DNA of 29,741 bases from a virus: the IMG/VR virus record IMGVR_UViG_3300042861_000896, positions 1-29,741 of that record; one strand, 5' to 3'. How positions within the stretch are numbered: the first letter of the stretch is position 1; the number at the start of each line of letters is the position of its first letter. Under the pieces are notes generated by a model. The model saw nothing but the letters and a program-made list of their open reading frames with translations. It made no database searches and was not told the DNA's origin. The translations under genes and the position numbers were made by a program. This document shows positions 1-29,741 of this stretch, in pieces.

Positions 1-2108
1 TTTTGTTTAGCTTCTTGTTTAGCAAGCTCTACTCCAATATTCTTCATTCTCTTTCCATTATATATATCTGCTACTTTCATAAGGTCTGGATCATTAAATT
101 GTGATGCCACATTTTTATTCATTAGTAAATTACCAAGCACTACACCAGTAGTTTCTGGTTCTCCTGTTTCAGGATTTATCTCTCCACCAGCTTCCATTTC
201 AAACATTGGTTCTCCTCTTTCTACTTCTACAGGATTCTCACCATATGTAATACCAATACCTGTTTGACCATTTCCATCAGAGTCAGTGTGTGACTGTCCT
301 CTAAATAAAACTGTTTCACCAGAACCTGGCATATAAGGATTGTGTGACATAGTTTCAGCTCCTCCACCCCAATGAGTTTCAAGTTGTCCACCCATAGCAT
401 ATGTTTGCATAGCTCTTTCACTTGGAGGTGTGTATGATTTTAAATGTCCACCAGCTCTAAACTTATTAGCATAATCAGCAAAGTCTTCTGCAGTGTGATC
501 ACCAAACATTGTAATTAATTGTGGATTGTATTCAGGGTTCATATATCCACCATATTCATAGCTAGGAATATCACCACCGTTTCTTACATATCTATTATGT
601 GTTTCTTGTAATCCTTGGAATCCTGAATTAAGAGACATAGCTTTTGTATAGGCTTTAGTTCTATCTTGAGCCTTTTTCATTTCTCTTGGATTTGTATCTA
701 ATAAGTTTCCAGCTATACCACCAACAAATTCTCCAACTGCTCCACCTATTGGTCCAAAAATACTTCCTATTGCTTTACCAGCAGTTCCTCCAATTTTTCC
801 ACCAGCATTTTGTCCACCCATTGCTGCTTGTCCTACTCCTGTAGCAGTACTTCCAATAGCTCCCCATGGAGTTCCACCAGAACCACCTTTCATACTACCT
901 ACTCCACCAGCTGTAGATCCAGAGAATCCACTCCCTTTACCAGCCATTGAGTTTTGCCATCTCTGCCATCCAGTCTCACCATCTTGTGCACGATGTAAAT
1001 AACCACCGTGTCTAAAGTCTTTTAATTGATTAGGATTTTGTAATGGTTCATAACCACCATCTGTATAGATGTCATATCCATTACTATATATGTTTTGTAT
1101 CTCTGTAGGATTACCTCCTATCATAGATCCATTTTGAGCTCTATGAATTGCTCCACCATTTCTAACAAGTGGATTTGTACCTACACCATATATAGGAAAG
1201 AACTCTTCTCCTGTGTTTTGTATATCTTCTGGACGAACATATCTTCTTTTAGATTCTTCTTCTCTAGTTCCAGAAGCAACCATAGCAACCTCAGCAACTT
1301 TTGCATCTCTCTGTGCATTTTTTTTTGCACGCTCTTCAGCATTCAATGCATCAATACCTTGAGCAATACCAACTAGAGGTCCACCTAATATATCTAATCC
1401 TTTAGCTACTTTAGTGAAACCACTTTCTGATGGTGTTTCTCCTTGACGAAGATCATCAGCACCAGTGATTTGTTGATCTTGATTTATTTGATATTTCTGA
1501 TCTGCCTCTTGTTGTTTTCTCATTTGTCTTTTTGACAAATTAGGTTGCAATCCAGATAAGTCTGGTTCTTCATTATCAATAGCCATTGGAGGCTTTGGAA
1601 ATCTTTGATTCACTCCCATTGTAGTTGTGTCTACAGTTGTATTGTTAAACCAGTTAGGTGTAGTGTATCCTGAATACGCTCTTGGAACATCACTTCCATA
1701 TCTACTCATAGCAAGATCAGACATATCCATTCCTTCAGCATCTGCACCACTACCACCAAACATTTTAAATATGTTACCCATCATATTGCCCATTCCTCCA
1801 CCACCAGACTCACCACCTTCAGAAGCAGCAGCTTGTGCAGCAGCAGCATCAGCTGCAGCTTTATCTCTTTCTGCTTGAGTTGATCCAGTGATTAACTTAT
1901 CATTCTCATCATATAATTCTTGTAAATTAACATATGATGCTGGTTTAGATACAAATTGTTTAGGAGAAGCTCCACCTATAAGTGTACCTATCTGAGCTTT
2001 CTTAAAAGCTTTACCATGTACTTTCATGAATGCTTCTTCTGAAGGATATTTCTTGTAGAACTCCTTTTCAGATTTAACTCCTGCAATTTTTAAGATTTCT
2101 GATTTCAT
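1..2108 (-). CDS. Giant virion cargo/ejection-type protein, 3' end outside window
   Basis: Frame is open from ATG at 2108 to the window edge (702 codons, no stop), so the C-terminus is missing. Start MKSEILKIAGVKSEKEFYKK is followed by an Ala/Gly-rich stretch at about residues 85-110. About residues 430-470 form a Gly-rich, GxxxG-like hydrophobic segment (motifs GGKIGGTAGKAIG and GPIGGAVGEFVGGIAG) that could insert in a membrane. Short motifs of the form GGxL..AQDG recur (NGGAIHRAQNG, HGGYLHRAQDG, MGGQLETHWGGG), as in the 1228-residue neighbour. It begins one base after that gene's TAA, which implies translational coupling. In crAss-like phages, very large Gly-rich proteins after the nozzle gene are packaged in the head and ejected with DNA; I infer the same role. 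No enzymatic motif was recognised. Confident it is coding, less so on role. Confidence 0.75.
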   Translation of the reverse strand, partial: MKSEILKIAGVKSEKEFYKKYPSEEAFMKVHGKAFKKAQIGTLIGGASPKQFVSKPASYVNLQELYDENDKLITGSTQAERDKAAADAAAAQAAASEGGESGGGGMGNMMGNIFKMFGGSGADAEGMDMSDLAMSRYGSDVPRAYSGYTTPNWFNNTTVDTTTMGVNQRFPKPPMAIDNEEPDLSGLQPNLSKRQMRKQQEADQKYQINQDQQITGADDLRQGETPSESGFTKVAKGLDILGGPLVGIAQGIDALNAEERAKKNAQRDAKVAEVAMVASGTREEESKRRYVRPEDIQNTGEEFFPIYGVGTNPLVRNGGAIHRAQNGSMIGGNPTEIQNIYSNGYDIYTDGGYEPLQNPNQLKDFRHGGYLHRAQDGETGWQRWQNSMAGKGSGFSGSTAGGVGSMKGGSGGTPWGAIGSTATGVGQAAMGGQNAGGKIGGTAGKAIGSIFGPIGGAVGEFVGGIAGNLLDTNPREMKKAQDRTKAYTKAMSLNSGFQGLQETHNRYVRNGGDIPSYEYGGYMNPEYNPQLITMFGDHTAEDFADYANKFRAGGHLKSYTPPSERAMQTYAMGGQLETHWGGGAETMSHNPYMPGSGETVLFRGQSHTDSDGNGQTGIGITYGENPVEVERGEPMFEMEAGGEINPETGEPETTGVVLGNLLMNKNVASQFNDPDLMKVADIYNGKRMKNIGVELAKQEAKQ

Positions 2109-2109
2109 A

Positions 2110-5100
2110 TTAATTATATTTATCTAACCAGCCTCCTGGTTGTTTGGTGTTATAGTTTGTAAAGTTAGTTAGATTATCTAAGTTAACCAAACCTTTTTGT
2201 TCTTGTCTTAATCCGTTCTTAGCTATAGGAAACTCTGTAACAGATTCTCCATCAAATTCATATTCTTCTTCTGGATACATCATCTGTACATCTCCAGTAT
2301 CTGATACTCCTAATACAGGATAAGGTACTCCTTGCATTGTTATTTGGTTACTGCCTATCTCTGTTATCTCTCCTGGATGAGCCCATTGTCCCATATCATC
2401 TTTGATAACTCCTCCATCTTTTTGTATTGGTCTATCTGTAATAGGAGTTTCTCCATAATAGAACTGTTGTTGAGAAGTATTTGGATTAGAAATTATATTA
2501 CCTTCAGAATCTAAAAATTTAGTATTTTGTAATTCTTTTGCTTCTCTATATTGTGGACCCATTACATTTCTAAATACTTCCTCTTCTCTACTTATACTAG
2601 GTTCTCCAATTCTAGAAATATATGGTCTTAGTTCTTTTTCTAATGCAGAATCAATTGGTGATGATTGAATCATATTATTCCTAGGAATAATTGGAAGAGG
2701 TCCTTCAAAATAGTTTCTTCCAGGAAGATCTAATTGTTTATATCCTTGCCACCAATGAGGTTTATCTCCATAAACATTTATATTAGAACCTGGAATTTCA
2801 GTCATAACTCTACCAGTTTCAGGATCTATAACTCTATGTGCATAATGTCTTCCACCAATAACGTCACCTGTTACAGGATTCACTTGTCCTCTTTTAAATG
2901 TAGGAAGTGATGTTTCAAATATAACACCACCTTCTTCAGGTAAATAAGTTAAGTCAGCATATCCTTTTTGAAAAGATGGAAAAGAAGTGGGTCTTGCTTG
3001 CATTCTATCTAAAAATGTTGGATTCTCAGGTAGAATTCTTTGACTTCTTAATACACCTGTATTATTAAAATCTTCAAGAGCATCTAATCCTGCTACTCTA
3101 TATGATTTATTTATATCATTTAATCTTTCTGCATTAGGATTTAATCTATATGCATTAGATAACAATCCTTCTTCTGTACCCAACAGTCTTCCTGCAGTTC
3201 TAAATCCAGCACCTATTAATGGAGCAGCTTCAAATCCTAACATTAAAGGATCACCAAGTAATCTAGCTGACATTGGAATATCTGCACTTTGTCCTGAAGC
3301 AATATCTCCAAAAGATTTATTACCATATATTCCTTCAACAGGAATTGTTAAAGGTTCTAATGTTCCTAATGTTGTATCAATATTAGAAAGAATAGGATTT
3401 TCTATAAGATCTTGTTTTTCTTTTGTAGAGAAGTAACCGCTAGTTTGTTTTAAATCATTAATAGCTCCTGGACCCATTACAAGACTACCTAGTCCTATTA
3501 ATCCTTTTCTCCATTTATTAAAATCTGTTGCATCATTGTATTGTGCGTTAGCTTCATATGCTCTTTCAAAATTAGGACTCTTTGCATTCTCAGCTTGAAT
3601 TCTATCTATGTATGCACCACGTTTCTCACCTTTAGCTTGTGGATGTGTTTTAACATATTCATCAAATGCTAATTTATTTATATAATCTTCATACTCTTGT
3701 TTTCTATATTCAGGAAGATTATCAATAGTTTGTCCCATGTTTTTTTCAAAGTTACCTAGATATCTTTGAGCATAGTCTTCCCATGTATTTTGTTTTTTTA
3801 ATTTACCACGTAATGCACCAAACTCTGTAGGTTTACCTTGGATAACAACATCTTCTAAAACACCACCTTGTATAGTAGGTTCACTTATTTCTTGTCCATC
3901 TTGTGCTACATCATATTTATTTAACCATCCACCATTCTTACTAATAGTCTTAGGTTGATAATCTAATCCCTCTTGATAGTATTTCATCTCTTGACCATTC
4001 TGTGCAGAAGCATCTGTTACATCAGTTTGGTTTCTACGTGGTCCTTTACTTGGTGCTCCTACTCTTGCATATGTAAATCCTACAGCTCCTGGAATAGAAC
4101 CACCCATTGCATATTCTTGTAATCCTTTATATATAGTACTCATTGGAGCTACATCTTTATAATGCTCTGCAAAATATTGTGCTTCTTCAGGAGAGTTAAA
4201 TCTAATTGCTTCTCTACTTCTAGTATTAGGATTTACTAATCTTAATTCATCTCCACCAAAATCTTGTAATAATGGTACAGCATAATTATCCATAGATCCC
4301 ATATAATGCGTTCCTATTCCTTCAGGAGTCATTCCTGTTTTAGGCATAGCTTGTGACATTCTTTTAATAGCAGGGTTACCAAAAGCATTACCCATTCCTA
4401 TTTTAGATTTCATCATTCCACGCATTGCAATATCATATTCAGAAAGTTCAGTACCATCTTGTGCTTGAGGAACATAGTTAACTGGATAGACATATCCACC
4501 CATTTGATATTGTGGGATTATCTCTACACTATCTCCTTTGTCTTTTCCACCACCTGTTGTATACCAATCTTTCTTGTCAACCCAATAATCCATATCCTCT
4601 GGAGAAGTTATATAACCTTGTTCTTTACTTCCAGCATGTTTCCAAATATATTTCCAATCTTTAACAGGTGTTACTTGTGGACGTAGTTCTGGAAGATTAG
4701 TATCTAATTCTAAACCATCACTTACTAATCCTTTTAATTGAAGGTTGTTTGCTACTGGTGTTATAGGTTTTCTATCTTGTGGTTTATCTTCATATATAGG
4801 TTTTTCAGTTTGTTTAGTTTTAGTAGGTTTATTTTTATCTAAATAACTTTTTGGTACACCATCTGTTCCATATTTTTTGACTCTTAATTTCTTTTCTTCA
4901 TCTGTAAGCATATCCCAAGGTTTAACAGATAAAGGATCATATCTATAAAGATTTACAGCTGAACCACTTGGTGGCATAAAACGTTCTAATTTTTTTTGAT
5001 CTTCCTCATACTTTTTAAGTTGTTTTTCTGTAGGATTTGGATATTTTTCATAAAACTCTGCTTCTTTAATTCCTTGTATAGTTTCATAAGAAACTAATTC

Positions 5101-5796
5101 TTTTGGTATTATTCTAGTATCTATGACTGTTGTAGGAGCCATAGGATCAATTATGTTAGGTAAATTATCTTTAGTTGCATATCTAGTACCTTTAGTTAAT
5201 CTTATATGTTCTGCCAATGCATCTAGATTAGCTTTTTTTGGATCCATATTTGGATACATATTTTTTAACAAACTATAATCTCTTTTCTGCATAGATTGTT
5301 CTTTATATGTTTTTCTAGATTCTTTATCAACATCTTTCATTTCTGCTTCAAGAGCTTTTGAAGATAAATTATTAACAGGATATATTTCTCTTTTAGGATA
5401 CCACCCTTTCTTTTTTAAATTATTATAATAAGCATCTATCTTTAAAGATCTATTATATATATCAAGACTATCAGCTCTTGTAGCTTTACCAGTTTGAGCT
5501 ATAGGAATTTCTCCACCATCTTCAAACTGTCCACCCCATGCAGGAGAATAGTTTCTTCCACTAGTGTCATTACCCATACCAACAAATCCTTCTGGTAAAG
5601 ATACAGAAGCATCATTATAGTTCTCTTGGTGTTCTTGCATTGTTCCACCATCAGCATATTGATCTAGCCAACCACCATTCTTCATGTTGTTAGAATTATC
5701 TCTACCACACTCATGACATATGTACATATCTTTCTTACTAGAATCAGATTTGTTCCAGGACCAACCGCATGTGCACTTTACTTTACCACTACTCAT
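2110..5796 (-). CDS. Giant virion cargo protein with N-terminal zinc-ribbon-like motif
   Basis: 1228 residues. The N-terminus has C8-x-C10 and C27-x2-C30, a short zinc-ribbon-like set, followed at once by NGGWLDQYADGG. Variants of this GGWL/AQDG motif recur through the protein (SKNGGWLNKYDVAQDG, EDGGEIPIAQTG, QKDGGVIKDD) and it ends in GGWLDKYN. Residues 568-579 read IPGAVGFTYARV, nearly the N-terminus of the major capsid protein. Roughly residues 780-900 contain hydrophobic Gly/Ala-rich stretches. About 895-1010 looks globular (YRVAGLDALEDF at its start), faintly like ADP-ribosyltransferase folds but without a convincing catalytic set. ATG overlaps the upstream TAA as TAATG. Position after the nozzle genes and composition fit a head-packaged cargo or ejection protein of crAss-like phages. 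Function is inference. Confidence 0.75.
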   Translation of the reverse strand: MSSGKVKCTCGWSWNKSDSSKKDMYICHECGRDNSNNMKNGGWLDQYADGGTMQEHQENYNDASVSLPEGFVGMGNDTSGRNYSPAWGGQFEDGGEIPIAQTGKATRADSLDIYNRSLKIDAYYNNLKKKGWYPKREIYPVNNLSSKALEAEMKDVDKESRKTYKEQSMQKRDYSLLKNMYPNMDPKKANLDALAEHIRLTKGTRYATKDNLPNIIDPMAPTTVIDTRIIPKELVSYETIQGIKEAEFYEKYPNPTEKQLKKYEEDQKKLERFMPPSGSAVNLYRYDPLSVKPWDMLTDEEKKLRVKKYGTDGVPKSYLDKNKPTKTKQTEKPIYEDKPQDRKPITPVANNLQLKGLVSDGLELDTNLPELRPQVTPVKDWKYIWKHAGSKEQGYITSPEDMDYWVDKKDWYTTGGGKDKGDSVEIIPQYQMGGYVYPVNYVPQAQDGTELSEYDIAMRGMMKSKIGMGNAFGNPAIKRMSQAMPKTGMTPEGIGTHYMGSMDNYAVPLLQDFGGDELRLVNPNTRSREAIRFNSPEEAQYFAEHYKDVAPMSTIYKGLQEYAMGGSIPGAVGFTYARVGAPSKGPRRNQTDVTDASAQNGQEMKYYQEGLDYQPKTISKNGGWLNKYDVAQDGQEISEPTIQGGVLEDVVIQGKPTEFGALRGKLKKQNTWEDYAQRYLGNFEKNMGQTIDNLPEYRKQEYEDYINKLAFDEYVKTHPQAKGEKRGAYIDRIQAENAKSPNFERAYEANAQYNDATDFNKWRKGLIGLGSLVMGPGAINDLKQTSGYFSTKEKQDLIENPILSNIDTTLGTLEPLTIPVEGIYGNKSFGDIASGQSADIPMSARLLGDPLMLGFEAAPLIGAGFRTAGRLLGTEEGLLSNAYRLNPNAERLNDINKSYRVAGLDALEDFNNTGVLRSQRILPENPTFLDRMQARPTSFPSFQKGYADLTYLPEEGGVIFETSLPTFKRGQVNPVTGDVIGGRHYAHRVIDPETGRVMTEIPGSNINVYGDKPHWWQGYKQLDLPGRNYFEGPLPIIPRNNMIQSSPIDSALEKELRPYISRIGEPSISREEEVFRNVMGPQYREAKELQNTKFLDSEGNIISNPNTSQQQFYYGETPITDRPIQKDGGVIKDDMGQWAHPGEITEIGSNQITMQGVPYPVLGVSDTGDVQMMYPEEEYEFDGESVTEFPIAKNGLRQEQKGLVNLDNLTNFTNYNTKQPGGWLDKYN

Positions 5797-6662
5797 TACT
5801 TGTAAGATATTTGACTTGGTGCAATAATGAATTGACTAACCAAGTGAGTTGTTGATGTGTTATCTAATATATGTCTTATCTTAGCATCCTTAGCTCTTAT
5901 TGTAGCTTTCTTGAAACTTCTAAGTCCATAGTCCATATTAGCTTGATTAACCACTTTATCAATTGATAAACTCTCACAAGTTGTATTGAACAATGGAACT
6001 TGAGAACTCTTCTCTAAAGCCCAGAATGTATTATACTGATAGAAGTTATCACTCTTAGTGTAAGTGATTGTTTTACTATCAGTATTGAATATAGGATATT
6101 GATTGTAAGCTTGTAAATTATTTAATGGTTTAGCTACTAATTCTAATATACCAGAACTCTGTTGTCCATTATATATAATAGCTTTATTAAACCATTTATC
6201 ATTTGTTTCTATTCTTGTGTTAATACTATATACACCATCAGGTATAGAAAGATATTCATATGCCTTAGTATAATCCATTACGTTCTGTAATAGCTCATCT
6301 TGGAATTTATATGCAAATGGATACTCAATAATATATGGTTCTATGTTTCCATAGAATGTATTATAGTTTTGTACATTAAGAGAGTGTGCCCATACACATC
6401 CTGTATTAATTTGCACTAAACTTATATTTGCAAAGTCTGATACAGTTATCTCTTCAACATTAACACTCTTTTCTGCTTTACATTTACCAGTAGATTTAAT
6501 AGTGATGATTGTAACATCATTATCTACAATATAACTAATTCCTTTTACAAGATCTCTTTTAGGTACGTTCTCAGCTATTATATTTCCAAATTGGTCATAG
6601 ATAGTGAAGGGTCCTGCACTAGGTCCTGATTCTTTTAATTTTATGGCTATAGTCTTTGACAT
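5796..6662 (-). CDS. Tail nozzle C-terminal-domain-like protein with N-terminal GPF module
   Basis: A longer start at 6677 (MEFVN...) overlaps the upstream gene by 14 bases. I chose the ATG at 6662, one base after the upstream TAA (TAATATG), because MSKTIAIKLKESGPSAGPF then aligns with the N-termini of the two paralogous modules at 16734 and 17297; this gives 288 residues. Residues 1-70 are that module (GPF..Y...STGKC). The remainder, with ITYTKSDNFYQYNTFW and QANMDYGLRSFKKATIRAKD, resembles, from memory, the C-terminal end of the very large nozzle/muzzle-type proteins of crAss-like phages. In those it is continuous with the propeller chain; here it is a separate gene directly behind the nozzle gene. 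It likely assembles with the 1798-residue protein. Role is inference from this resemblance and adjacency. Confidence 0.6.
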   Translation of the reverse strand: MSKTIAIKLKESGPSAGPFTIYDQFGNIIAENVPKRDLVKGISYIVDNDVTIITIKSTGKCKAEKSVNVEEITVSDFANISLVQINTGCVWAHSLNVQNYNTFYGNIEPYIIEYPFAYKFQDELLQNVMDYTKAYEYLSIPDGVYSINTRIETNDKWFNKAIIYNGQQSSGILELVAKPLNNLQAYNQYPIFNTDSKTITYTKSDNFYQYNTFWALEKSSQVPLFNTTCESLSIDKVVNQANMDYGLRSFKKATIRAKDAKIRHILDNTSTTHLVSQFIIAPSQISYK

Positions 6663-6663
6663 A

Positions 6664-9600
6664 TTAACAAATTCCATTATTAGTTAATGTTACATCTGCT
6701 GGTGTACTTGGACAACATCTAGCACAGAAAGTTACTGATGAAGGTCCTCCTCCTGCAAGTCCAACGTTTATACTTGCTGGTGTTCCTGTACAATCTGTAT
6801 AAGTTACTGCCACTACACCCACTGTAGATTTAATAGCAGTGTATGAAATACAAGGTGTTACAGTGGTAGTGGTTGTGCTAGTTGGGAAACATTGTTCCAT
6901 ACTAACAATTATTCCACCTACTACTTCATAAACTGTTCCAGTGCTTGAACTCTCATCTGTGAAATACCATCCATCAGGAATCACTGAACAATCTGTTTCA
7001 TAATTAGGACCTGCATAAATTGTAGATCCAAGAGAAAGAGTTGAATAACTTCCTACTATAGTAATCACTACAGTGTTTGGTGGAATAGTATTTAAATAAG
7101 TCATTGCATTACAAGCATCTAGTTGACTACCTGTTGACTCAACTCCTATAGGAATTGATGTTATATTATATCCAATAGCAAAATCATTTTGATTTAGATT
7201 TTCAGGTCTTACACAAGGTGGAGGTGCTGGTCCCACTGTAATCACACCAGTACCATCTAATGCACAATAAGTAAATCTAATAGTTCCTGCTAATTCACAA
7301 TCATATGGAGATATTGTTGTTGTTGTTGTACTTGTTCTAAAAGTATTCGATGTTGTTGTAGTTGTTGTTGTTGGTCCATCTGGAACTATTGGTCCAGCAA
7401 CAAAATCAAAATCATCACAGCATCCATTGATTCCTGAATAGAAGAAATTATTTTCACCCATATAGAAATTAGGAATATAACTATGAAAAGAAATCCAACT
7501 TTGTGTATTGAAATTATATGATGCTGTCCAAGACTTATCACAGAAGTATTCTGGATCTTTTAAACTCACAACGGTTCTAATTGGTGAACTACCAACTACA
7601 GGTGTTTCTACATAGAATTCTTTTGTATCATAATCATACTTAACATCAGGAGTAAGAGGAATATAATCAAGTTTAGTTATTATGATTCTCTCATATCTAT
7701 TATCATATACACCATGTAATCCAACACCATTGAAATTATTATCTGTATCAACTCCTGGAATAGTAACCATCTTACCATTCACCATAACAGTTTTACTTGG
7801 GAAGTATGTTAATATTTCAAATGATAAATGGTTTGTAAAGAAGTTGTTCATACCTGAAGCAAACGATGTAAGATCTTTAGCTCCTTCACCTGTAAGTAAA
7901 AAGATCTGTCCTCTCTTAGCATCTACAGTAACTTGTCCTTGAGGGATTTTTAATAAGAACTTATTCTGACTTCCTACATATCCAAGATCTGTTTCAGCAA
8001 AATCTACAGGAGGTGAACTTCTAAATAAAGAAGGATTACCTAAATAAGCAGCTTGTGGATTACTTGTATCAATTGTAAGTAATGTGTTATACAATAAAGA
8101 TTTGTTCTCAAACCTAGCTAGAATAGCTTTGTTTTGAATACCATCTAATGATATAAGATTTCCATAGTTTTGAGGAAAGTCAAAATATGAAACTGCTCTA
8201 TATGTTAACCAGCTATTAATTCTATTATCAGAATCTATGTTTTGAGAATCTGAATAGATTGTTCTAAATGGATAGTATGTAAAACAGAAATCCTTTCTCC
8301 AGTCAGCTGGTAAATGTGTAAACACATTTTCTTTATTCTGTTTTGAATATGTTACATTGTAGTTGTACGTATTATCAAATGCAATAGATACATAATCTTC
8401 TTGTACCCAATCATCAGGAATACTTGTGCTTACGTGTGGCCAGAAATCACCTTCTCTATTATTGAATGCTTGTCTAAGATCTGTATTGTAAGAACTCTCA
8501 CAATAGAAGTTAGGAATACCATATGCAAACAAATAGAAATATCCATTATAATATGTTCTATCAGGATTATCTTGAGCAGGGTAACTAGGAGTTGATGTTG
8601 GTCCAGGTTCTTGACTGTTAGGACAATCAAAGTTATGAGCTTTGTATGAAATAACACTTGATAAAGTACCTATAGTTGGTACTGTATAATCTGCAAGAAT
8701 AGATCTAGCAGAGTGCCAGTATTTTGGATAGGCTATGTTACCAATCTCATCATAGAATATGTCACTATCATCAGGAGCATTAACTCTGTTATCAATAAAG
8801 AATGGTAGCTTTGTTTTGAATGTGAATCTAGAAATAAATGTATCTCCACCAAACACTACATCATTTCCTGATGTTGTTGAGTTAATAGATGATTGATATC
8901 CTGTATCCACTGTACTATATGTATATATTTGTCCCCATTGATTTGGAATTATATTCTTCAATGAAGCATAATAAGATACAACACTAATGTCTTGTTCTTT
9001 AGCTGGTTTAGCACATGCACCAGTTTCACCAATAGTAATTCTAGATTTTTCTGTAACAATAGGAACTCCTCCTACAATCATACTAGGACTATTACTTGGT
9101 AATGGTAATGGTGGTACTGCTGTAACACCATCTTCTCTAACATCTATTGTTTTTAAATAAACAGATGATTCTCTTCTGTAATTATTAATAGGAGCATTTT
9201 TTAATCCATCAGGAGTCATGATAGTATCACCAACAGACTGAACACCAGGAATAAGATATCTGTATATATCAAGCATTCTTTGTTTGATACCTTGTACACC
9301 ATTAACTGTAATGTTATTACCTATACCTGCACTATAATTATAATCAGCTATTGAGTTATATGAATATGCATAGTTTCTTCTTGTAATACCATTAATATAA
9401 ATAGTTAAATAAGATTGGTATACAGTGAACATTGCTGTTGCACTAAATCCATATCCTAAACCTCCTATTACTTGTGAACTAGTTAAAGCATCTATCTGAG
9501 CTTCTTTTGTAAGAAGTTTATATTTAGCATTACTTCTCACTTCAACAAAGTGACCAAGTCCTTTACCAAACATTACATTCTCAAGCTTTAATACATCACC

Positions 9601-12060
9601 TAAGAATGGTTGTCCAAATGATGTTTCAGGAGAATTAAATATTTGTCTATATGCTAGTTCTGGTTTAGTAGATATGCCAGTTTGAGGAAGTTCTTTTGTA
9701 CAAGCATCCACTCTAACTGCATTATTAAAAGTGATAACCTCATTTCCTGCAGCATCTCCACCTGATATATTAACAGGAGGTTGTGAGGGAGGTCCTGATA
9801 AACAATTTAAAAGATAAGTTGCTCCACCAAAAATTCCTCCAGCTACCCATTGTTCTTTATATCCTTCTACAGGATCTGTCCATGCTGCTCTATATCCAGC
9901 TTTTCCAGTTCCAATATCAGTTGTACCAACAGCAACACGATACACATCATAATTAGATGGTCCTACATTCACCTTTGTTCCAGGAGTAGCTGTTTCATTT
10001 CCTCCTTGATTAGTACTCATTCTATTGAATGGTCCAGGTCCTTGTGGTATAGGTCTACTAATAGAACATAATACTTGTCTACCTAATGTAGTGTATTTTA
10101 TTCTATCTAATTTATTAGTATTACAATCAGTATATTCAACCTCTGCGTAAGTAGGAATACCTGTTAGAGGTAGATTAAATTGTAATATATCAATATTCCA
10201 TGGTTTACATATATCCTGCCAAGCATTGTTTGTTTCGTTTAGGAATGGATCATCACCAACCACTTCATTATATGGATAGTTTGGATAGTAGTAGTATTGT
10301 CCTTCTCTTTCATAAGAGTTAACATTACGAAGAATTCCTTTAGCTACAATAGATTTATTTGTACCTCTATTACCTCTAATGATTTTAAATCCTGCTATTT
10401 CGCTTTTCTCATCATCAGTTAGATTAGAATTGTATATTAGGTTTGATATCTGCCCTTTGTCTATTTTAAGACCAATAGGAAATACAGCATCATTACCCAT
10501 CACCATTGATGTAGCACTTGTAAATATTTTTGACTCAGTTACAGGAGAAACTAATACATCTGGAAACTTATGATGTCTTATTTTTTTACCTGCTAAGTCA
10601 CCCCATACATCTACATTACAAGGGTATTCTTCTATAGATTCCCAATAAGCCATTTGACCATATTGCCAAGGTCCTTTATAACCAGGATCTGTAGAATAAC
10701 CTGGAGAAAATCCAGTTACAGAAGCTGTGTTATATATTTTCCAATAAGGACTATAGTTTGTACCTGGTTCAGGATTACCTATGAAGTCAGCACTTGTATC
10801 AGGAATATTTGGTTGAGACCACTCGTTCCAGTTTTGTTCTCTACCAGGAATATGGAAACCATCTGTTTGTTTTCCATTCTTTAATAAAAACACTATTTCA
10901 AATGCATACACCTCATCACGTAGATACCCACGTAAGTTTGTAGCATTCAATTCATCAGCATAGTTTTCTGTAGCAGGGATTCTATATGTTTCCCATTCAA
11001 CAGTTATTTGATTAGCTATTGATTGATAGTTAAGTCTACTAATAGATGTAAGATTATCCCATACAAGAATGTCTTGTACAGAGGTAACATCTTGAGCTAT
11101 CTCGTAATAAGGAAACTTTTCAAATATATCATTGATAGATAATTGTATTGAAGTTTGATCACTTCCAGTGTATGTAACTTGATCAGTAGGTTGTTCAATA
11201 AAATATGTACCTACCAACTCTACAGATGTACCATTATTAATTGTTTTGATTACAGCTAAGTTGTAGTATTGAAACTGTCCTGTAGTATCAAGATCTTTTA
11301 TATCTACAATAATAGATTTATTAACATTAGTATTGAAATTAACTGTTGTTAATTGCTCATCTATTATAGGTGTAGGATTGGTAACTGAGTAATACGATGT
11401 ATAACCATTACCTGCAGCATCAGAATACTGTATAGCAAATTGATAAGTTCCTGATATAAGTTCTCCTCCATTTCTCACTTCATTAATTGAAAGTTGAGGA
11501 ATAGTGAAATTAGGTTGTATTTTAATTTGATTACAATCTAGTTGGTCTGTATATATAGGATTACAAAGATCTGAACCAGATTGTAGTAAGTAAGGAATAT
11601 TATTTAAATCTAAATATCTTCTTGCATTAAGTCCATCTGTCCAATATATTTCTATAGTACAATTAGTTATCTTATGTACCACTTTATGTATTGGGTGATT
11701 TAAATTAAAATTTAAACATGGAGCATTAACTAATGTGTGATAGATACAATCACCATTATCCATATATCCTATCTCTGAATCACCACTTATTGGATTGTGA
11801 AGAAAATATATATGTTTGTTTTTTTCATTAATGAAATGAGTACCAATCAATAAATAAGACTTTGGAAAAGTAACACACAGGTCATTACCTAACTCGTTCT
11901 GATAGTTAATTATATTACCATCAAAATTCTCAACATTAGCATTTAATGCATACGTTAGTGACCCCTGTTTAACTTGATTGATAGAACTATCTAAGTTTAA
12001 TCCAGTGGTTGCACTATTTAAATTTGGAGTTATATTACTCTTTGATTGTTCTTCAGCCAT
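6664..12060 (-). CDS. Giant tail nozzle (muzzle)-type protein with Thr-linked C-terminal modules
   Basis: 1798 residues, the largest gene in the window. The N-terminal 1550 residues are beta-rich with repeated aromatic/Gly strands (KHIYFLHNP, IEIYWTDGLNARRYLDL, TYQFAIQYSDAAGNGYTS) as in propeller-like tail nozzle proteins (T7 gp12 or P22 gp10 type, 'muzzle' in crAss-like phages). After SFHSYIPNFYMGENNFFYSG a Thr/Ser linker starts (about 1563-1585), then a module ending DGWYFTDES...GGIIVSMEQC (to about 1724), a second Thr linker, and a final Cys module with VTYTDCTG. Those two modules have relatives in the 361-, 636- and 275-residue proteins of the display region. The following gene looks like the missing end of the nozzle fold. 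It sits five bases after a ring-type protein gene, the usual neighbourhood of the nozzle gene. Nozzle assignment is from order and fold character. Confidence 0.65.
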   Translation of the reverse strand: MAEEQSKSNITPNLNSATTGLNLDSSINQVKQGSLTYALNANVENFDGNIINYQNELGNDLCVTFPKSYLLIGTHFINEKNKHIYFLHNPISGDSEIGYMDNGDCIYHTLVNAPCLNFNLNHPIHKVVHKITNCTIEIYWTDGLNARRYLDLNNIPYLLQSGSDLCNPIYTDQLDCNQIKIQPNFTIPQLSINEVRNGGELISGTYQFAIQYSDAAGNGYTSYYSVTNPTPIIDEQLTTVNFNTNVNKSIIVDIKDLDTTGQFQYYNLAVIKTINNGTSVELVGTYFIEQPTDQVTYTGSDQTSIQLSINDIFEKFPYYEIAQDVTSVQDILVWDNLTSISRLNYQSIANQITVEWETYRIPATENYADELNATNLRGYLRDEVYAFEIVFLLKNGKQTDGFHIPGREQNWNEWSQPNIPDTSADFIGNPEPGTNYSPYWKIYNTASVTGFSPGYSTDPGYKGPWQYGQMAYWESIEEYPCNVDVWGDLAGKKIRHHKFPDVLVSPVTESKIFTSATSMVMGNDAVFPIGLKIDKGQISNLIYNSNLTDDEKSEIAGFKIIRGNRGTNKSIVAKGILRNVNSYEREGQYYYYPNYPYNEVVGDDPFLNETNNAWQDICKPWNIDILQFNLPLTGIPTYAEVEYTDCNTNKLDRIKYTTLGRQVLCSISRPIPQGPGPFNRMSTNQGGNETATPGTKVNVGPSNYDVYRVAVGTTDIGTGKAGYRAAWTDPVEGYKEQWVAGGIFGGATYLLNCLSGPPSQPPVNISGGDAAGNEVITFNNAVRVDACTKELPQTGISTKPELAYRQIFNSPETSFGQPFLGDVLKLENVMFGKGLGHFVEVRSNAKYKLLTKEAQIDALTSSQVIGGLGYGFSATAMFTVYQSYLTIYINGITRRNYAYSYNSIADYNYSAGIGNNITVNGVQGIKQRMLDIYRYLIPGVQSVGDTIMTPDGLKNAPINNYRRESSVYLKTIDVREDGVTAVPPLPLPSNSPSMIVGGVPIVTEKSRITIGETGACAKPAKEQDISVVSYYASLKNIIPNQWGQIYTYSTVDTGYQSSINSTTSGNDVVFGGDTFISRFTFKTKLPFFIDNRVNAPDDSDIFYDEIGNIAYPKYWHSARSILADYTVPTIGTLSSVISYKAHNFDCPNSQEPGPTSTPSYPAQDNPDRTYYNGYFYLFAYGIPNFYCESSYNTDLRQAFNNREGDFWPHVSTSIPDDWVQEDYVSIAFDNTYNYNVTYSKQNKENVFTHLPADWRKDFCFTYYPFRTIYSDSQNIDSDNRINSWLTYRAVSYFDFPQNYGNLISLDGIQNKAILARFENKSLLYNTLLTIDTSNPQAAYLGNPSLFRSSPPVDFAETDLGYVGSQNKFLLKIPQGQVTVDAKRGQIFLLTGEGAKDLTSFASGMNNFFTNHLSFEILTYFPSKTVMVNGKMVTIPGVDTDNNFNGVGLHGVYDNRYERIIITKLDYIPLTPDVKYDYDTKEFYVETPVVGSSPIRTVVSLKDPEYFCDKSWTASYNFNTQSWISFHSYIPNFYMGENNFFYSGINGCCDDFDFVAGPIVPDGPTTTTTTTSNTFRTSTTTTTISPYDCELAGTIRFTYCALDGTGVITVGPAPPPCVRPENLNQNDFAIGYNITSIPIGVESTGSQLDACNAMTYLNTIPPNTVVITIVGSYSTLSLGSTIYAGPNYETDCSVIPDGWYFTDESSSTGTVYEVVGGIIVSMEQCFPTSTTTTTVTPCISYTAIKSTVGVVAVTYTDCTGTPASINVGLAGGGPSSVTFCARCCPSTPADVTLTNNGIC

Positions 12061-12065
12061 GAGTA

Positions 12066-13040
12066 TTAATTATTACGTCTTCTACCATATCTGTTAGTAC
12101 GGTTAGGAAGTTCATACATATTAAATCTATTAAGATCATTTTTGATTCTTCTTTGCTTCTCCCAAGGAGATTGCTTCTTCATTTCAATCTCAGCCATGAT
12201 ATAAGCTTCTTCATACATCTGTTTGTAATATACTAACTTCTGTTGTAATTGATTGAAAGTTTCATCATTAGTTTGATTAGTAAGCATCTCAAACACTTTA
12301 AACTTAATGAATGCTTCTACATATTCTCTAATACGATAGTTATCAGGAATCATTTGATTACCTATCTCATCGTATTCTGTAGCATAGAACAATAAGTGTA
12401 CAACACCATTTCTGAAATTAGTTACAAACTTATTATCTCTAATATCAAAGCTATCATAACTAGCAGCACCAGGAGTGAATTCATGAATAGGAGGAGCTTC
12501 AGCATAGAAGTCCCAATTGTTTGTATATTCCACTCCACAGTTTTGTCTTGCAGATATATTACCAGGCTTAAGTAAATACTCGTGAGTAAATCCTCTAGCT
12601 ACAGTGTTATTTGTTTTATATACAGCTTGAACTAATTGTGGCATACATGTACCATTACAAGCTGGATCTTGACAACCAGGTTGAGTACAAGGAGTTCCTC
12701 CAATAGTTAATGGAGACACTTGAATAGTGGTAGCATTAGCTGCTTGAGAATAGAATGAATTAGCTGTCTGATATGGATACCCTGCCACTTCTGTACACAT
12801 CCAAGCTTCTCTTACAGCATAAAAGTTATCAGGAAGTCTAGCTTGGAAGTCTTCTATAAATAAAACTTCTTCACTTATTACAAAGGTAGTTCTTCCTAAC
12901 TTCTTAAGACACTTGTCTAAGTAGGTAGGAAACAAAAGATCATCCACTGCACCAGTATCAAAATAAGATTTTAATTCTTCTTTAACTGTTGAATAGACAG
13001 GCTCTGGGGATACGAAATTATATTTATAGTAGTACGACAT
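12066..13040 (-). CDS. Neck/ring-type structural protein (tail adaptor)
   Basis: 324 residues starting MSYYYKYNFVSPEPVYSTVKE. The N-terminal half has DDLLFPTYLDKCLKKLGR followed by FQARLPDNFYAVREAWM, the pattern I associate with the conserved ring/adaptor protein of crAss-like phages, analogous in role to T7 gp11 or P22 gp4. A Cys-rich insertion (CTQPGCQDPACNGTCMPQ, about residues 117-134) could bind metal or form disulfides. The C-terminus is a helical, basic tail (KKQSPWEKQRRIKNDLNR; ends NRYGRRRNN). It lies between two other small neck-type genes and the nozzle gene, with gaps of 3 and 5 bases, so it belongs to one translation unit that builds the neck. Exact ring identity cannot be fixed by reading. 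Confidence 0.6.
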   Translation of the reverse strand: MSYYYKYNFVSPEPVYSTVKEELKSYFDTGAVDDLLFPTYLDKCLKKLGRTTFVISEEVLFIEDFQARLPDNFYAVREAWMCTEVAGYPYQTANSFYSQAANATTIQVSPLTIGGTPCTQPGCQDPACNGTCMPQLVQAVYKTNNTVARGFTHEYLLKPGNISARQNCGVEYTNNWDFYAEAPPIHEFTPGAASYDSFDIRDNKFVTNFRNGVVHLLFYATEYDEIGNQMIPDNYRIREYVEAFIKFKVFEMLTNQTNDETFNQLQQKLVYYKQMYEEAYIMAEIEMKKQSPWEKQRRIKNDLNRFNMYELPNRTNRYGRRRNN

Positions 13041-13043
13041 AAT

Positions 13044-13523
13044 TTATTTTTTCCATTCGTTATAGATATATTGATACTTGTCGTTGGTCTTTAAGTAGTG
13101 TGATAATAATCGTGAGGTTAATCTAGAAGGTTTAAAATACCAAAGGTCAAAATTTTTAAAGCGTGCAGTTTGCTTAAACCACATCCAACCAAAGAAATAA
13201 CCTTCTGTATGATAATTAAAGTTATATATAACCTTTCCTTTCTCTTTAGTCTTCTGCCAGTCGATCGGTAAGTTGACAAACTCTTTACCATCTACGTTGT
13301 TTTTTAGTTTCCTTCTTTTCTTTTTATTGATTGAGAACTCTCCAAATCCAAAAGGTAGTTTTACTCTTTCACCTGTTTCTAATATGTATTCTTTAAAAGA
13401 TTCATTGTATGTATATAATACATTTCTCCATTCATCATAAGTAAGTTTAATAGATGGATGTTTTTTGCAGAAATTATTATAACTGTCCTTACTAGAACTT
13501 CTCCAATCAATCTTTGTTCTCAT
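13044..13523 (-). CDS. Small conserved crAss-like protein of the neck cluster, function unknown
   Basis: 159 residues, basic and aromatic, with no signal peptide or membrane segment. Distinctive motifs are KLPFGFGEFSINKKKRR, FVNLPIDWQKTKEKGK, FNYHTEGYFFGWMWFKQ and WYFKPSRLTSRLLSHYLK. I remember close relatives as a conserved small gene near the ring proteins in crAss-like genomes but know no assigned function. Its ATG overlaps the upstream gene's TAA (TAATG), so it is coupled to the 242-residue protein. The high charge and Lys/Arg clusters would suit contact with DNA or with an acidic structural partner. A structural or assembly role is suggested only by position. Confidence 0.55.
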   Translation of the reverse strand: MRTKIDWRSSSKDSYNNFCKKHPSIKLTYDEWRNVLYTYNESFKEYILETGERVKLPFGFGEFSINKKKRRKLKNNVDGKEFVNLPIDWQKTKEKGKVIYNFNYHTEGYFFGWMWFKQTARFKNFDLWYFKPSRLTSRLLSHYLKTNDKYQYIYNEWKK

Positions 13524-14251
13524 TAATTAGTTGGTTTTGAGTTTGGTGCTTGTCCATCTATTCCTTCTTGACTAGTATCAGTTTTCAAATTGAAATACGT
13601 AGATAGTAGCTTTTGAGATGTAAGTTGTAGCGTTTGTTGTTCTAAGTATCCAGGAAGAGGAAACTCTTTATCTAATGGATTCTTACATAGTTCTTCAGTA
13701 GTATATTCTGGAGTTCCACATCCACATTCTGGATACATAATTTCATTCTCCACATCTTCTTCAAATAATGCTACAAATCTAATTGATTTAAGCAATGGAT
13801 TGTTTACATATAGATATCCATTAGATATCCAATAGTATTCTTCATTCTTGATTATAGGAAGTTTTAATAGATTTATATATCTATTAACTGTGATTTCTTT
13901 TAACTTCTTTCCTGTACCACCTAATGCATTAATAGAATAAACTCCTTGTATTACATATTGGTAATTACCTTCTGATATACGTGGGAGTTTAAGTTTTGTT
14001 CTAGCAACACTACACTCATCTACATAGTTACAACATTCAGAGATAGGTACTTCTATCATCTCTAAACAAGGAATAGTAGTGAATAGTGTATCAGTTGCCC
14101 AAAGTTTTCTTAGATTGGTTTCTCTTTTAATTAGCATTAAAGCATTGTTTCTTATCTCAGATGCGATTGCTCTATCTGTAATAAGACTGTCTGTAGAAAG
14201 TATCTTGTGGACACTTCTAACATCTGATACTAATTTTCTTAATGTTGCCAT
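13523..14251 (-). CDS. Neck/ring-type structural protein, crAss-like
   Basis: 242 residues starting MATLRKLVSDVRSVHKILS. The N-terminus is helical (about 1-50) and is followed by a beta-rich core with ECCNYVDECSVARTKLKLP and YQYVIQGVYSINALGGTGKKL, then YWISNGYLYVNNPLLKSIRF. A Cys pair follows in PECGCGTPEYTTEELC. This arrangement (helices, then a beta sandwich that ends in an acidic tail) is what I would expect for a ring or head-tail adaptor subunit. The gene sits two bases after the metallophosphoesterase stop and overlaps the next start by one base. The assignment rests on neighbourhood and general resemblance, with no specific family motif recognised. Confidence 0.5.
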   Translation of the reverse strand: MATLRKLVSDVRSVHKILSTDSLITDRAIASEIRNNALMLIKRETNLRKLWATDTLFTTIPCLEMIEVPISECCNYVDECSVARTKLKLPRISEGNYQYVIQGVYSINALGGTGKKLKEITVNRYINLLKLPIIKNEEYYWISNGYLYVNNPLLKSIRFVALFEEDVENEIMYPECGCGTPEYTTEELCKNPLDKEFPLPGYLEQQTLQLTSQKLLSTYFNLKTDTSQEGIDGQAPNSKPTN

Positions 14252-25770: not shown

Positions 25771-27333
25771 TTAGAATTGTGGGATTTCCTCGATCAACAC
25801 AGTTCTAGAAAGATCTTCAATAAATACATCACATCTGTCTTTCATCCAGATTTCGTATCCTGGGAATTTGTTAGCAGAACTCATACCTTGAGATTTAGCA
25901 AAACCTAAGTGGTGACGAGTACCATCAATATAACCCCATGTCATAGAAGGAGCACCTTTCATACGTACTTCTCTAATGTTGTTTACCATAGATCCATCAG
26001 ACATTGGAGAAACATCAAACACCATAAATACTGGAGTAGATTTTTTGTTTTGTCCAAACTCTAAGTTAGTTTGTGGTAAATCTAATTCTTTTAAGTGAAT
26101 CAATTCAACACGTCCAGTCTCACGAGTTACCATTGCATCAAATGCAAAGTTGTAAGTGATGTGTTGTCCTTCACCTTGCATATATCTGTTTCCAGAATCA
26201 GCCATGAAAGTTAATCCAGAGTTTAATGCATCTGTTTTAAGAGCTTGTTGGAACACGTCAAAACCAGCCTCATTAGTATACATTTTAACACTTCTATCTT
26301 TCACATCCACTCTTCTGTAGAATAAATCTCCAAATACAGAACGGATTAAGTTAGCAGAGAATTCACCTCTGTTGTATTGTACTAAGTTACCATTGTTTCT
26401 CATTCTGTGGTATACACCAGCAGATGTTCTTTTCAATTCTTGTTTAGAACCATTAGTTTTAACTGTACCTGGTTTAGCCCAGATCATACGTTTAACTTTT
26501 AATTCTAACATAGATTTACGCATCCAGAACTCAATAAACGGTTCCCATTTAACATCATTACGAGTTAAAGGTAATTGGTTTCTTCTTTGTGGAGCATACA
26601 CTAAAATATCAAGAGGTTTTCCAGAAGAATCTCTCATCATTTTATCATCAGCCCACTCAGTGATTTTGTGCTCATATCCATATGCTGATCCTAAAGATTC
26701 GAACATAGTGATTTGCTCACCTAATCTTGGAAGACCTAATAAGTCTTGATCAAACTCACCAATAGCAGCATCAACTAATTCTAGTTCTACACCATATTGT
26801 AAGAAGATAGGGTTTACGAAATCAACAATTGGATTGTCAGTTACTAATGTAAATGTGTACAAGAATCCCATGTTCCAAGGCACTGGATCTTTGATTACGT
26901 AGAATCTAGGACCATACTGACGAGTACCTACAGAAACGATAGCGTTTTTAGAGAACTCATTAGTATCTAATACTAAAGAAAATTCTTGACCATCGATACC
27001 TGTTTTACCAGCTGCGATTAAATCTTGCGTAGAAGCAGGAATGTCAATAATTTTTGGGAATTTGTAAGGAACAGCGATTTGCCATTTCCAAGCATCACTA
27101 TTATTATCGATGTAATAAGGTGTGCTTTTGTTGATCATGTCTAAGAAGTCATTACTGTACAAAGAGCTCTGAGTATATAAAGAGATAATCTTTTTATCAT
27201 AATCAGCTGGCTCAGTAGAGTGAAAAGACTCCAAGTGATTTGAGTCAGTAAGTTTTCCAACAGCACGTTTGTCCATAGACGCTACACGAGCATAAGTAAA
27301 ACCTGTTAACCCTGGGATTGTTTGAATTGCCAT
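25771..27333 (-). CDS. Major capsid protein, crAss-like HK97 fold
   Basis: 520 residues, a typical length for crAss-like major capsid proteins. The start MAIQTIPGLTGFTYARVASM matches my memory of that family. The later segments DAWKWQIAVPYKFPKIIDIP, EFIEFWMRKSMLELKVKRM-type helix, GVYHRMRNNGNLVQYNRGEF and MTWGYIDGTRHHLGFAKSQG also fit. It lies between a scaffold-like gene and conserved capsid-neighbour genes, the expected order. The A/T leader lacks a Shine-Dalgarno sequence. Residues 6-17 recur inside the 1228-residue cargo protein. A structured GC-rich element follows its stop. No separate prohead protease gene is visible in the window. Confidence 0.8.
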   Translation of the reverse strand: MAIQTIPGLTGFTYARVASMDKRAVGKLTDSNHLESFHSTEPADYDKKIISLYTQSSLYSNDFLDMINKSTPYYIDNNSDAWKWQIAVPYKFPKIIDIPASTQDLIAAGKTGIDGQEFSLVLDTNEFSKNAIVSVGTRQYGPRFYVIKDPVPWNMGFLYTFTLVTDNPIVDFVNPIFLQYGVELELVDAAIGEFDQDLLGLPRLGEQITMFESLGSAYGYEHKITEWADDKMMRDSSGKPLDILVYAPQRRNQLPLTRNDVKWEPFIEFWMRKSMLELKVKRMIWAKPGTVKTNGSKQELKRTSAGVYHRMRNNGNLVQYNRGEFSANLIRSVFGDLFYRRVDVKDRSVKMYTNEAGFDVFQQALKTDALNSGLTFMADSGNRYMQGEGQHITYNFAFDAMVTRETGRVELIHLKELDLPQTNLEFGQNKKSTPVFMVFDVSPMSDGSMVNNIREVRMKGAPSMTWGYIDGTRHHLGFAKSQGMSSANKFPGYEIWMKDRCDVFIEDLSRTVLIEEIPQF

Positions 27334-27369: not shown

Positions 27370-28638
27370 TTATAAGAACCATGAATTAGGTTTAGCTCCT
27401 GAACCGTTTGCTCCAGATGACTTTTGTTTAGTCACTTGTCTTGCAACTTCTCCGAACAATTGGTTAGACTGTTTAGTCACACCTGTTCTTTGTATAGTTG
27501 ATAATGTAGGATCTTTCTCTAACATTTTCATAAGAAGCCCTAATTTAACTTTCATTGCATGGTTCTCTGGTCTCTTCATATCCAGGATAGCACGATCAAA
27601 GTCTGTTAGTGTTTCTCCTGTAGGAGTTTTCCACTTGTCAACTAATAAGAAGTCTTGTAGTTCTGTTGCTAATTTTGGATTGATAGGAATCCCATCAAAC
27701 TCTTTTGCTTTAACCTTCTCTTGCAAGATGGTTTGTACGTTGTCTATATATTGATTTCTGATTTGAGCTTTTTGTCTTAACTCAGCTTCAGATTTCTGTT
27801 CTAGTTGTTGTAGCTTAGCTGCTTCTTTTTTAACCAACACTTTGTGGTGTTTAGTAGCTACGCTTTCAAGATCACCATAGTTTTGAAGTCTTTCAATTTC
27901 TGTATCTATGTCTTCAGGATCAAATCCTTGATCAGCTAAAGCTTGTTTCATTATTTTCATCTGATTGTTCTCATCATTAAGATCCATCTCAGCGAAATTA
28001 ACTATCTGATTGTATGTACCAAAATACTCCTTAGGATTAACTCCCTTTACAAATATGGCATCAAACGCTTCTTGGTAATCTTCTCCAAATTGTGAGATGA
28101 AGTTTTGTACCATTTCAGAGGCACCTTTCTTCTTCTCATTATTAAATCTTTCTAAGAATTCTTCTGCTGTAGATACAGGTTGTGGATCTTCATCATCATC
28201 ATTGGTGAATACACCTAATTTATAAAGATCATTTGCAAGAGCAGTGAATTGTGTACCTTGTGGTTCATCATCATCTGCATCACTGTCATCAGCAGTAGCT
28301 TCTGGAGCTTTTGCAGATTTTGTTGGAGCAGGTGTATCATCATCCTCATCTTCATCATCACTTAAGAAATCAGCAATCATAGATTGTCCTTCTGCTTTCT
28401 CTTCGTCTGTTTTACCATCAACGCTTTTAGGAGGAACAATATCCTTACCTTTTTTCACTGCTGGTGCTTCAGGAGCATCAGGAGCATCAGCGTCTTTAAT
28501 AATAGGTGTAACATCTTCTGGATTAGATGTTGATGTCTCAGGGGAAAACAAGTCATTTAATAGTTCTTGATTACCCATTCCCATGTCCATAGTATCCTGG
28601 ATACTAAAGTTACCCATAGTTTCTAAATTATCAGCCAT
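27370..28638 (-). CDS. Scaffolding-like acidic helical protein
   Basis: 422 residues between portal and major capsid genes, the classical scaffold position. The N-terminal 150 residues are Asp/Glu/Pro/Ala-rich and probably disordered (DFLSDDEDEDDDTPAPTKSA, ATADDSDADDDEPQGTQ). The rest is helical with strong coiled-coil character (KHHKVLVKKEAAKLQQLEQK, EAELRQKAQIRNQYIDNVQ). The C-terminus is basic and Gly/Ser-rich, ending NSWFL. An acidic, helical protein with a basic C-terminus is typical of internal scaffolds, whose C-terminus binds the capsid protein. A promoter-like element is seen upstream. Assignment is by position and composition. Confidence 0.65.
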   Translation of the reverse strand: MADNLETMGNFSIQDTMDMGMGNQELLNDLFSPETSTSNPEDVTPIIKDADAPDAPEAPAVKKGKDIVPPKSVDGKTDEEKAEGQSMIADFLSDDEDEDDDTPAPTKSAKAPEATADDSDADDDEPQGTQFTALANDLYKLGVFTNDDDEDPQPVSTAEEFLERFNNEKKKGASEMVQNFISQFGEDYQEAFDAIFVKGVNPKEYFGTYNQIVNFAEMDLNDENNQMKIMKQALADQGFDPEDIDTEIERLQNYGDLESVATKHHKVLVKKEAAKLQQLEQKSEAELRQKAQIRNQYIDNVQTILQEKVKAKEFDGIPINPKLATELQDFLLVDKWKTPTGETLTDFDRAILDMKRPENHAMKVKLGLLMKMLEKDPTLSTIQRTGVTKQSNQLFGEVARQVTKQKSSGANGSGAKPNSWFL

Positions 28639-28755: not shown

Positions 28756-28784
28756 TTGCCCCTCCTAAGAGAGGCAATTTTTTT
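28756..28784 (+). terminator. Intrinsic-terminator-like hairpin, plus-strand orientation
   Basis: TTGCCCCTC, a CTAA loop and GAGAGGCAA form a stem of eight pairs with one mismatch (28756-28777), followed on the plus strand by seven T (28778-28784). On the minus (gene) strand the stem is preceded by A7 and followed by AAAACATATT, so it lacks the U-tract for the portal transcript. It overlaps the portal stop. Confidence 0.45.
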
Positions 28785-29741
28785 AACCTTTTTTGTTATT
28801 TCTGCCCTTAGCATTCTCTTTAGCCACTGCTAAATCGTTTGCCATATTCTCTCTTTGCACTTGCAGTTTCTCTTTCTCTATGGACATTTTATCAGACGCT
28901 TGTTTGTTCTTAGCTTGAATATCAGCCATCTTTAATCCATAGTCTTTAGCAGCTTTATTTTCTTCAGCATTTAACTTACTGATTTCCAATACATCAGGAA
29001 CAGCATTAGCATTAACATCTTCACTTGCCACATTACCAAATCCTGTAGCTTGAATAATAGCAATCTTCTCTTTAGATAGTCTATCAAGTTCTTTTTGGTA
29101 ATTATCATTAGTTTGTTGCTCTTGTGCCAATTGAGCAGCTTGTTGTAATGTAGCTTGAGCTTGTTCTTGTTGTTGTTGTAATTGTTGTTGCTGTAACTGA
29201 TTAGCTTGTTCTTGTTGAGCAACTTGTCTATCTCTAAGATCTTTGAATGTTTTCTTAAGCTCTCTTTGAGACTTAGAGCTATAAAGTTCCACTACATCAT
29301 AAAGCGTGCCACCATTTTGAATAATAGCTTGAGAAAGTTGTCTAAGCTCATTAAACATCTGAGTATCTTCTGGTCTGTTAGTTAAGAACACTTTTAAGTC
29401 TCTGAATTTAAGATCTGATCCATTCACTTGTACAAATGCAGATTCTCCTTCAGATGTAATGTATGAAAGTGTAGATTGTGGTTTAGAGCTCTCTACGTAT
29501 AATGCAGCATCTATAATAGCTTGGTATAATTGTCCCATTACATACTCGTGTGCAACGAATAGAGGCTCTGTTTGGGAATAACTTTGTTGCATAGCAGTGT
29601 TAGTACCTGTAGCACTTTCTGATGCTGATATAGACCCCATACGTTGTTTAGACATACCTACAAGTTCCCAACACTCAGCTTTCATTTGTTGAGCTAGTGT
29701 ATATCTAGATTGTATCTCTTGCGTACGTGTAAGATCAAGAG
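28783..29741 (-). CDS. Portal protein, C-terminal 318 residues (5' part outside window)
   Basis: The frame is open to the window edge; an internal ATG at 29685 is not the true start, because the upstream codons continue in frame (LDLTRTQEIQSRYTLAQQ). The visible region has ECWELVGMSKQRMGSISASE and ESATGTNTAMQQSYSQTEPL, then MGQLYQAIIDAALYVESSKP, the helical wing/crown character of a crAss-like portal. A Gln-rich coiled coil (about residues 145-215 of the visible part; QLQQQQLQQQQEQAQATLQQ) and a charged helix (ISKLNAEENKAAKDYGLKMA) form the C-terminal barrel-like end, closing in KGRNNKKG-type basic residues. Upstream position relative to scaffold and capsid supports the call. The DNA-conducting dodecamer role is known for the family. 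Confidence 0.75.
   Translation of the reverse strand, partial: LDLTRTQEIQSRYTLAQQMKAECWELVGMSKQRMGSISASESATGTNTAMQQSYSQTEPLFVAHEYVMGQLYQAIIDAALYVESSKPQSTLSYITSEGESAFVQVNGSDLKFRDLKVFLTNRPEDTQMFNELRQLSQAIIQNGGTLYDVVELYSSKSQRELKKTFKDLRDRQVAQQEQANQLQQQQLQQQQEQAQATLQQAAQLAQEQQTNDNYQKELDRLSKEKIAIIQATGFGNVASEDVNANAVPDVLEISKLNAEENKAAKDYGLKMADIQAKNKQASDKMSIEKEKLQVQRENMANDLAVAKENAKGRNNKKG

Follow-up and report, generated by a model that had tools for sequence, protein, structure and literature searches.

In phage P22, the C-terminus of the scaffold protein binds the N-terminal arm of the coat protein, and on maturation this arm refolds into the next subunit (PMC9965877). In encapsulins, an N-terminal helix forms part of the pocket for the cargo peptide (PMC8346489). 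Given these precedents, a cargo peptide that resembles a capsid arm could dock on the scaffold or on the shell. A fixed cassette of about 46 residues, surrounded in its protein by freely changing inserts, is a concrete and testable candidate for the signal that sorts crassvirus proteins into head versus tail storage zones. The presence of such a conserved, docking-like cassette in a hypervariable and probably injected protein of environmental crAss-like phages is the solid result of this analysis, to which mimicry of the arm of the major capsid protein (MCP) is an attractive but unproven extension.

The window analysed is a whole IMG/VR virus record of 29,741 bases and represents a genome fragment. 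Judged by sequence, it is a Crassvirales structural block comprising capsid, portal, ring proteins 1 and 2 and muzzle: the MCP matches the Crass_capsid family, the ring proteins and muzzle stand in crassvirus order, and the gene order as a whole matches gp31-gp46 of crAss001. The main genes all lie on the minus strand, in the order portal end, scaffold-like ORF, MCP, ring proteins 1 and 2, muzzle, 293-aa gene, 1228-aa cargo-like ORF and C1-like ORF. The features are as follows:

28783..29739, minus strand: portal protein, C-terminal part, cut by the window end (phrog_6547 portal, E 1.8e-30)
27370..28638, minus strand: acidic scaffold-like protein between portal and MCP (sequence and gene order; position of crAss001 gp31)
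25771..27333, minus strand: MCP, 520 aa (Pfam Crass_capsid PF23898, E 3.2e-27)
27283..27318, minus strand: MCP N-terminal arm peptide IPGLTGFTYARV, residues 6-17 of the 520-aa MCP (translation)
13523..14251, minus strand: ring protein 2 (Pfam CrAss_Ring_2, E 5.6e-20)
12066..13040, minus strand: ring protein 1 (Pfam CrAss_Ring_1, E 1.8e-10)
6664..12060, minus strand: muzzle protein, 1798 aa (Pfam crAss_MUZ, E 5.6e-33)
5796..6677, minus strand: 293-aa gene between muzzle and cargo (phrog_15100)
2110..5796, minus strand: modular cargo-like protein, 1228 aa (translation; module census of 80 relatives; alignment A5)
3964..4116, minus strand: whole cassette, about AMGGSIPGAVGFTYARVGAPSKGPRRNQTDVTDASAQNGQEM (profile A1; end coordinates approximate)
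4060..4095, minus strand: cargo core peptide IPGAVGFTYARV, residues 568-579 of the 1228-aa ORF 2110-5796 (translation)
3..2108, minus strand: cargo C1-like protein, cut by the window end (gene order; position of crAss001 gp45)

The MCP also matches PHROG 11589 (major head protein, E 1.9e-32) and, by hhalign, gp32 of crAss001 (E 1.7e-9). The ORF at 27370..28638 matches phrog_16294, a PHROG without assigned function, and its sequence and gene order suggest a scaffold role. Homologues of the 293-aa gene, 53-57% identical, occupy the same place in four cassette-less genomes (four relatives examined). The C1-like protein gives a weak hhalign match to gp45, and its relative in genome G110 carries a gp45-like segment (E 9e-10). 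The Rfam search returned no match, and PDB sequence searches with the MCP, the cargo protein and C1 returned no useful one. Beside the ring protein genes, positions 14254-15468 encode a protein of 404 aa that contains a metallophosphoesterase-like stretch of the GNHD type (VVLVQGNHDRT) and has no Pfam match at E 0.01; between 15649 and 21899, several tail-region proteins have long linkers rich in threonine and serine, whose coding DNA consists of short imperfect repeats. The genome contigs offered one lead to a host, a single binned contig in a Tissierellales MAG, which was not accepted as identifying it.

The cargo-like protein has an N-terminal zinc-ribbon-like motif (CxCGWSW..CHxCG), an SPAWGGQF module and the IPG cassette, after which come an MKYYQEGLDY module, a variable insert, a GQWAHPGEITEI..YPVLGVSD module and an FTNYN..GGWLDKYN C-terminus. 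Among 80 non-redundant relatives, 258-2069 aa long, the modules always follow one order (zinc-ribbon-like start, SPAWGG, IPG cassette, YYQEG, HPGE, YPVLG and FTNY/GGWL end) and the inserts between them vary in length and content. This hypervariability is found between phages whose MCPs are mostly >90% identical. The window copy has no Pfam or PHROG match (Pfam even at E 1) and no recognised effector domain; exchangeable effector domains of the kind found in polyvalent proteins occur in its relatives only, LysM and Amidase_2 in one (L170) and ART-PolyVal in another among the 42 proteins scanned. HExxH-like stretches are present in the insert of a further relative (L408). The design is of the polyvalent type with an exchangeable payload, presumably located in the virion, as gene position and modules suggest, and probably injected. 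The protein is not classed as C1, there being no PHROG, Pfam or meaningful PDB match to establish homology with gp45. In G110, a C1-like protein (L405:7126-10344) has the GQ..HPG.IT.I..PVLGVSD module of the window cargo protein beside its segment resembling crAss001 gp45 (E 9e-10), which suggests module exchange between neighbouring cargo genes.

The cassette comprises about 46 residues with a 12-residue peptide as its core, and profile A1 (46 positions) matches it at 73-99 bits, normally in a single copy per genome. Its position ranges from residue 47 to residue 879 in proteins of 258-2069 aa, with the other modules in unchanged order. The mean column identity of alignment A5 (42 cargo proteins) is 9%, and within the cassette P, G, G, Y, A, R, P, G, T, S and A are invariant in these 42 proteins, the core reading PG..G..YAR. 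Because the pattern used to collect the cargo proteins required only P, G (or a close residue), G and Y, the A, the R and the later invariant positions are the unbiased part of this result. The core occurs in 55 DNA versions, and other cassette types read SLPGASGMMY[SAG]R, GHMYAR, GNMYAR or, with an internal deletion, LPSAFVR. One search yielded 49 MCP-bearing records, and profile A1 detects the arm (at profile columns 10-24) in all 49 and the cargo cassette in 45; the other four, being fragments, break off 16-22 kb beyond the MCP, close to the expected place of the cargo gene. In the records examined that bear the cassette and in which an MCP was found, every MCP is at least 93% identical to that of the window. 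A preliminary description of this DNA had proposed a search for the motif in the virion proteins of relatives, and profile A1 matches the MCP and the cargo protein only. The same description had named absence of the motif from both proteins in close relatives as grounds for refutation; both sites are kept, and the peptides are nearly always retained among the 80 MCP relatives collected first (94-100% identity) and among 55 cargo relatives. Since one conserved cassette per genome is the least variable part of a hypervariable modular protein, a dedicated function is supported, most plausibly docking or loading into the particle.

In the window, IPGAVGFTYARV and IPGLTGFTYARV are identical at 10 of 12 residues, and translation bears out both this match and the two positions as originally described. 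The same codon is used at 4 of the 10 residues common to the peptides. Across 100 genomes, codon identity is 0.405 within versus 0.383 between genomes; thus the likeness is not a recent DNA copy, in agreement with the preliminary description. DNA duplication or gene conversion is rejected, codon identity being at background. The ungapped score of the MCP and cargo proteins of the window is 60, and shuffled cargo gives 37.6 +/- 3.9 (Gumbel p 3.5e-4, or p ~0.007 after allowing for 20 partner proteins); theirs is the best-scoring pair of window proteins when threonine/serine-rich linkers are set aside. The arm scores 59 against the cargo protein, and shuffled arms score 33 +/- 3.8. The peptide was not found in the literature.

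The MCP motif exists in 43 DNA versions, with heavily varied synonymous sites, that encode about five peptides. The arm peptide shows few substitutions in MCPs down to 77% identity, those of 77-92% having the close variants VPGLTGFQYGRV, IPGLTGFNYARV, IPGVTGFKYARV and LPGATGFTYARV, and it is replaced at about 40%, where a sister clade, known only from fragments ending before the cargo gene, has the different arm GFPKRYVVGETSS. On a tree of 112 MCP genes, the MCP-like F-type cassette is basal and widespread across the clade, with GMMY, GHMY and GNMY as derived types; 17 genomes of the GMMY type form a single clade, and a few others are scattered. The cassette-less genomes lie mostly near the root, one of them (L304 of G110) on a long branch of uncertain place; in G110, G113, G119 and G125 the MCP motif is present and the cargo region has no cassette. 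Because the F-type is basal and the cassette-less genomes are near the root, the MCP motif appears to be the older of the two, with the likeness best in the ancestral form, and it probably predates the cassette. An AlphaFold model (pLDDT 45, and 25-31 in the arm) was too poor to place the arm. More widely, arms differ strongly between crAss-like lineages (L291 to L295) although the GKFTDSNH-type segment that follows is kept, and the arm seems to evolve by replacement.

The signal was originally proposed to act at the protein level and to be common to shell and cargo. The first part holds; the peptide is kept in both proteins of close relatives and is, in the cargo protein, the core of a strongly constrained module. 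The second part is weaker: the two peptides do not co-vary, the cassette drifts and some genomes with the MCP motif are without it. These latter observations may suggest that arm and cassette are conserved independently for unrelated roles, the one as a capsid lattice contact and the other in cargo docking, folding or a tail-barrel contact, an explanation that is held at less than even probability and ranks close behind the docking-cassette reading. The window pair, at 10 of 12, is the single best case among 100 genomes, in which a cassette shares 5-10 of 12 residues with its own MCP, usually 8-9, falling to 5-6 in the GMMY clade. In 97 related loci, comparison of the whole MCP with other ORFs gives peak scores of 44 +/- 3.2, which by chance reach at least 50 in 6 of them and never 60, and the median score of arm against own cassette is 48; for a whole-MCP search, this median and the usual 8-9 of 12 are not remarkable. 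Cassettes match their own MCP at 7.63 of 12 positions and the MCPs of other genomes at 7.62 (357 of 1000 permutations as high), a comparison of low power because the MCP motif hardly varies. Cassettes drift as far as SLPGASGMMYSR, with changes at positions 5, 7 and 8, while the MCP remains IPGLTGFTYARV, and the MCP motif of the four genomes named above occurs without any cassette. No arm/cargo match was found in crAss001, Leptolyngbya phage Lbo-JY46, G104 or the partial G105. What weighs against coincidence is that, conditioned on the arm, the median of 48 lies about 7 sd above background (arm against other ORFs 30 +/- 2.4, maximum 36). In addition, all 6 invariant core positions of the cassette coincide with matched positions, and the ancestral cassette type is the most MCP-like.

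The profile-profile match of A6 and A1 (hhalign, probability 91%) speaks for a common signal; it ends after 15 columns, and longer homology between MCP and cassette is rejected. So short a likeness agrees with coincidence and tells against an ancient copy, in which a duplicated coding sequence for the MCP arm would have seeded the cassette and then drifted, with or without a remaining common function. The greater age of the MCP motif and the basal place of the F-type would suit such an origin; however, codon identity is at background and the synonymous sites are saturated, and the copy is judged improbable. A maturation-protease site in both proteins, also raised in the preliminary description, is less probable still. 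The probable presence of both proteins in the virion and the shortness of the peptide would be compatible with cleavage; however, Peptidase_S78 (PF04586), the one protease family searched for, is absent from 27 near-complete genomes in which controls were found, and a cleavage site is therefore unsupported. Moreover, the ORF between portal and MCP is scaffold-like and not a protease, and the words protease and cleav- are absent from the main text of the crAss001 structure paper.

The reading tentatively preferred here, likewise at less than even probability, is that the peptide belongs to a docking cassette, possibly an imitation of the capsid arm, in a modular protein that is probably virion-borne and injected. 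Contact with the scaffold or with the shell, or an address for packaging, is accordingly the possible function that is favoured. The backbone modules of the cargo protein would stay while its inserts change, and the cassette would most likely tether or load the protein into the assembling head. Since the cassette is kept while all around it changes, its contact appears to be required of every carrier. The core PGxxGxxYAR may dock at the inner-surface site into which the N-terminal arm of the MCP fits, and arm and cassette would then have a partner in common. The coat-binding end of the scaffold-like protein (27370-28638), itself a candidate common partner, could provide this site, or a neighbouring MCP could. 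A bolder and more doubtful proposal is that imitation of its own capsid N-terminal arm lets a crAss-like phage load a hypervariable injected protein, the cassette acting at arm- or scaffold-binding sites of the procapsid as a general address label for exchangeable effector domains. As a sorting signal, the cassette would also help to recognise, in environmental genomes, the variable effectors that phages deliver; should the arm likeness prove functional, phages would have a counterpart to the targeting peptides of encapsulins.

Cargo proteins C1 (gp45) and C2 (gp46) of crAss001 (PMC10172136) are, like the window protein, modular, GG-rich and encoded in the neighbourhood after the muzzle gene, and a module of the window protein is joined to a gp45-like segment in one polypeptide of the relative G110. 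However, 2110-5796 lies as an additional gene between those for muzzle and C1 and has no gp45 match of its own, and crAss001 has neither the cassette nor an arm match. Polyvalent phage proteins (Pfam ART-PolyVal context) resemble the cargo family in being large and multi-domain with exchangeable inserts, whereas the window copy has no recognised effector domain and ART-PolyVal, or LysM with Amidase_2, is met in single relatives. To our knowledge, a fixed backbone with a conserved cassette has not been described for polyvalent proteins, and we know of no P22 cargo with an arm-like peptide. In the P22 procapsid, the N-arm of the HK97-fold coat protein is itself the scaffold contact (PMC9965877), whereas the partner of the cassette is presumed here. 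Encapsulin targeting peptides (PMC8346489) are, like the cassette, short conserved peptides on variable cargo, and the encapsulin shell likewise has the HK97 fold with its N-terminus as part of the cargo site. The cassette, a putative docking peptide, differs from them in being internal rather than terminal and in resembling the arm of its own shell.
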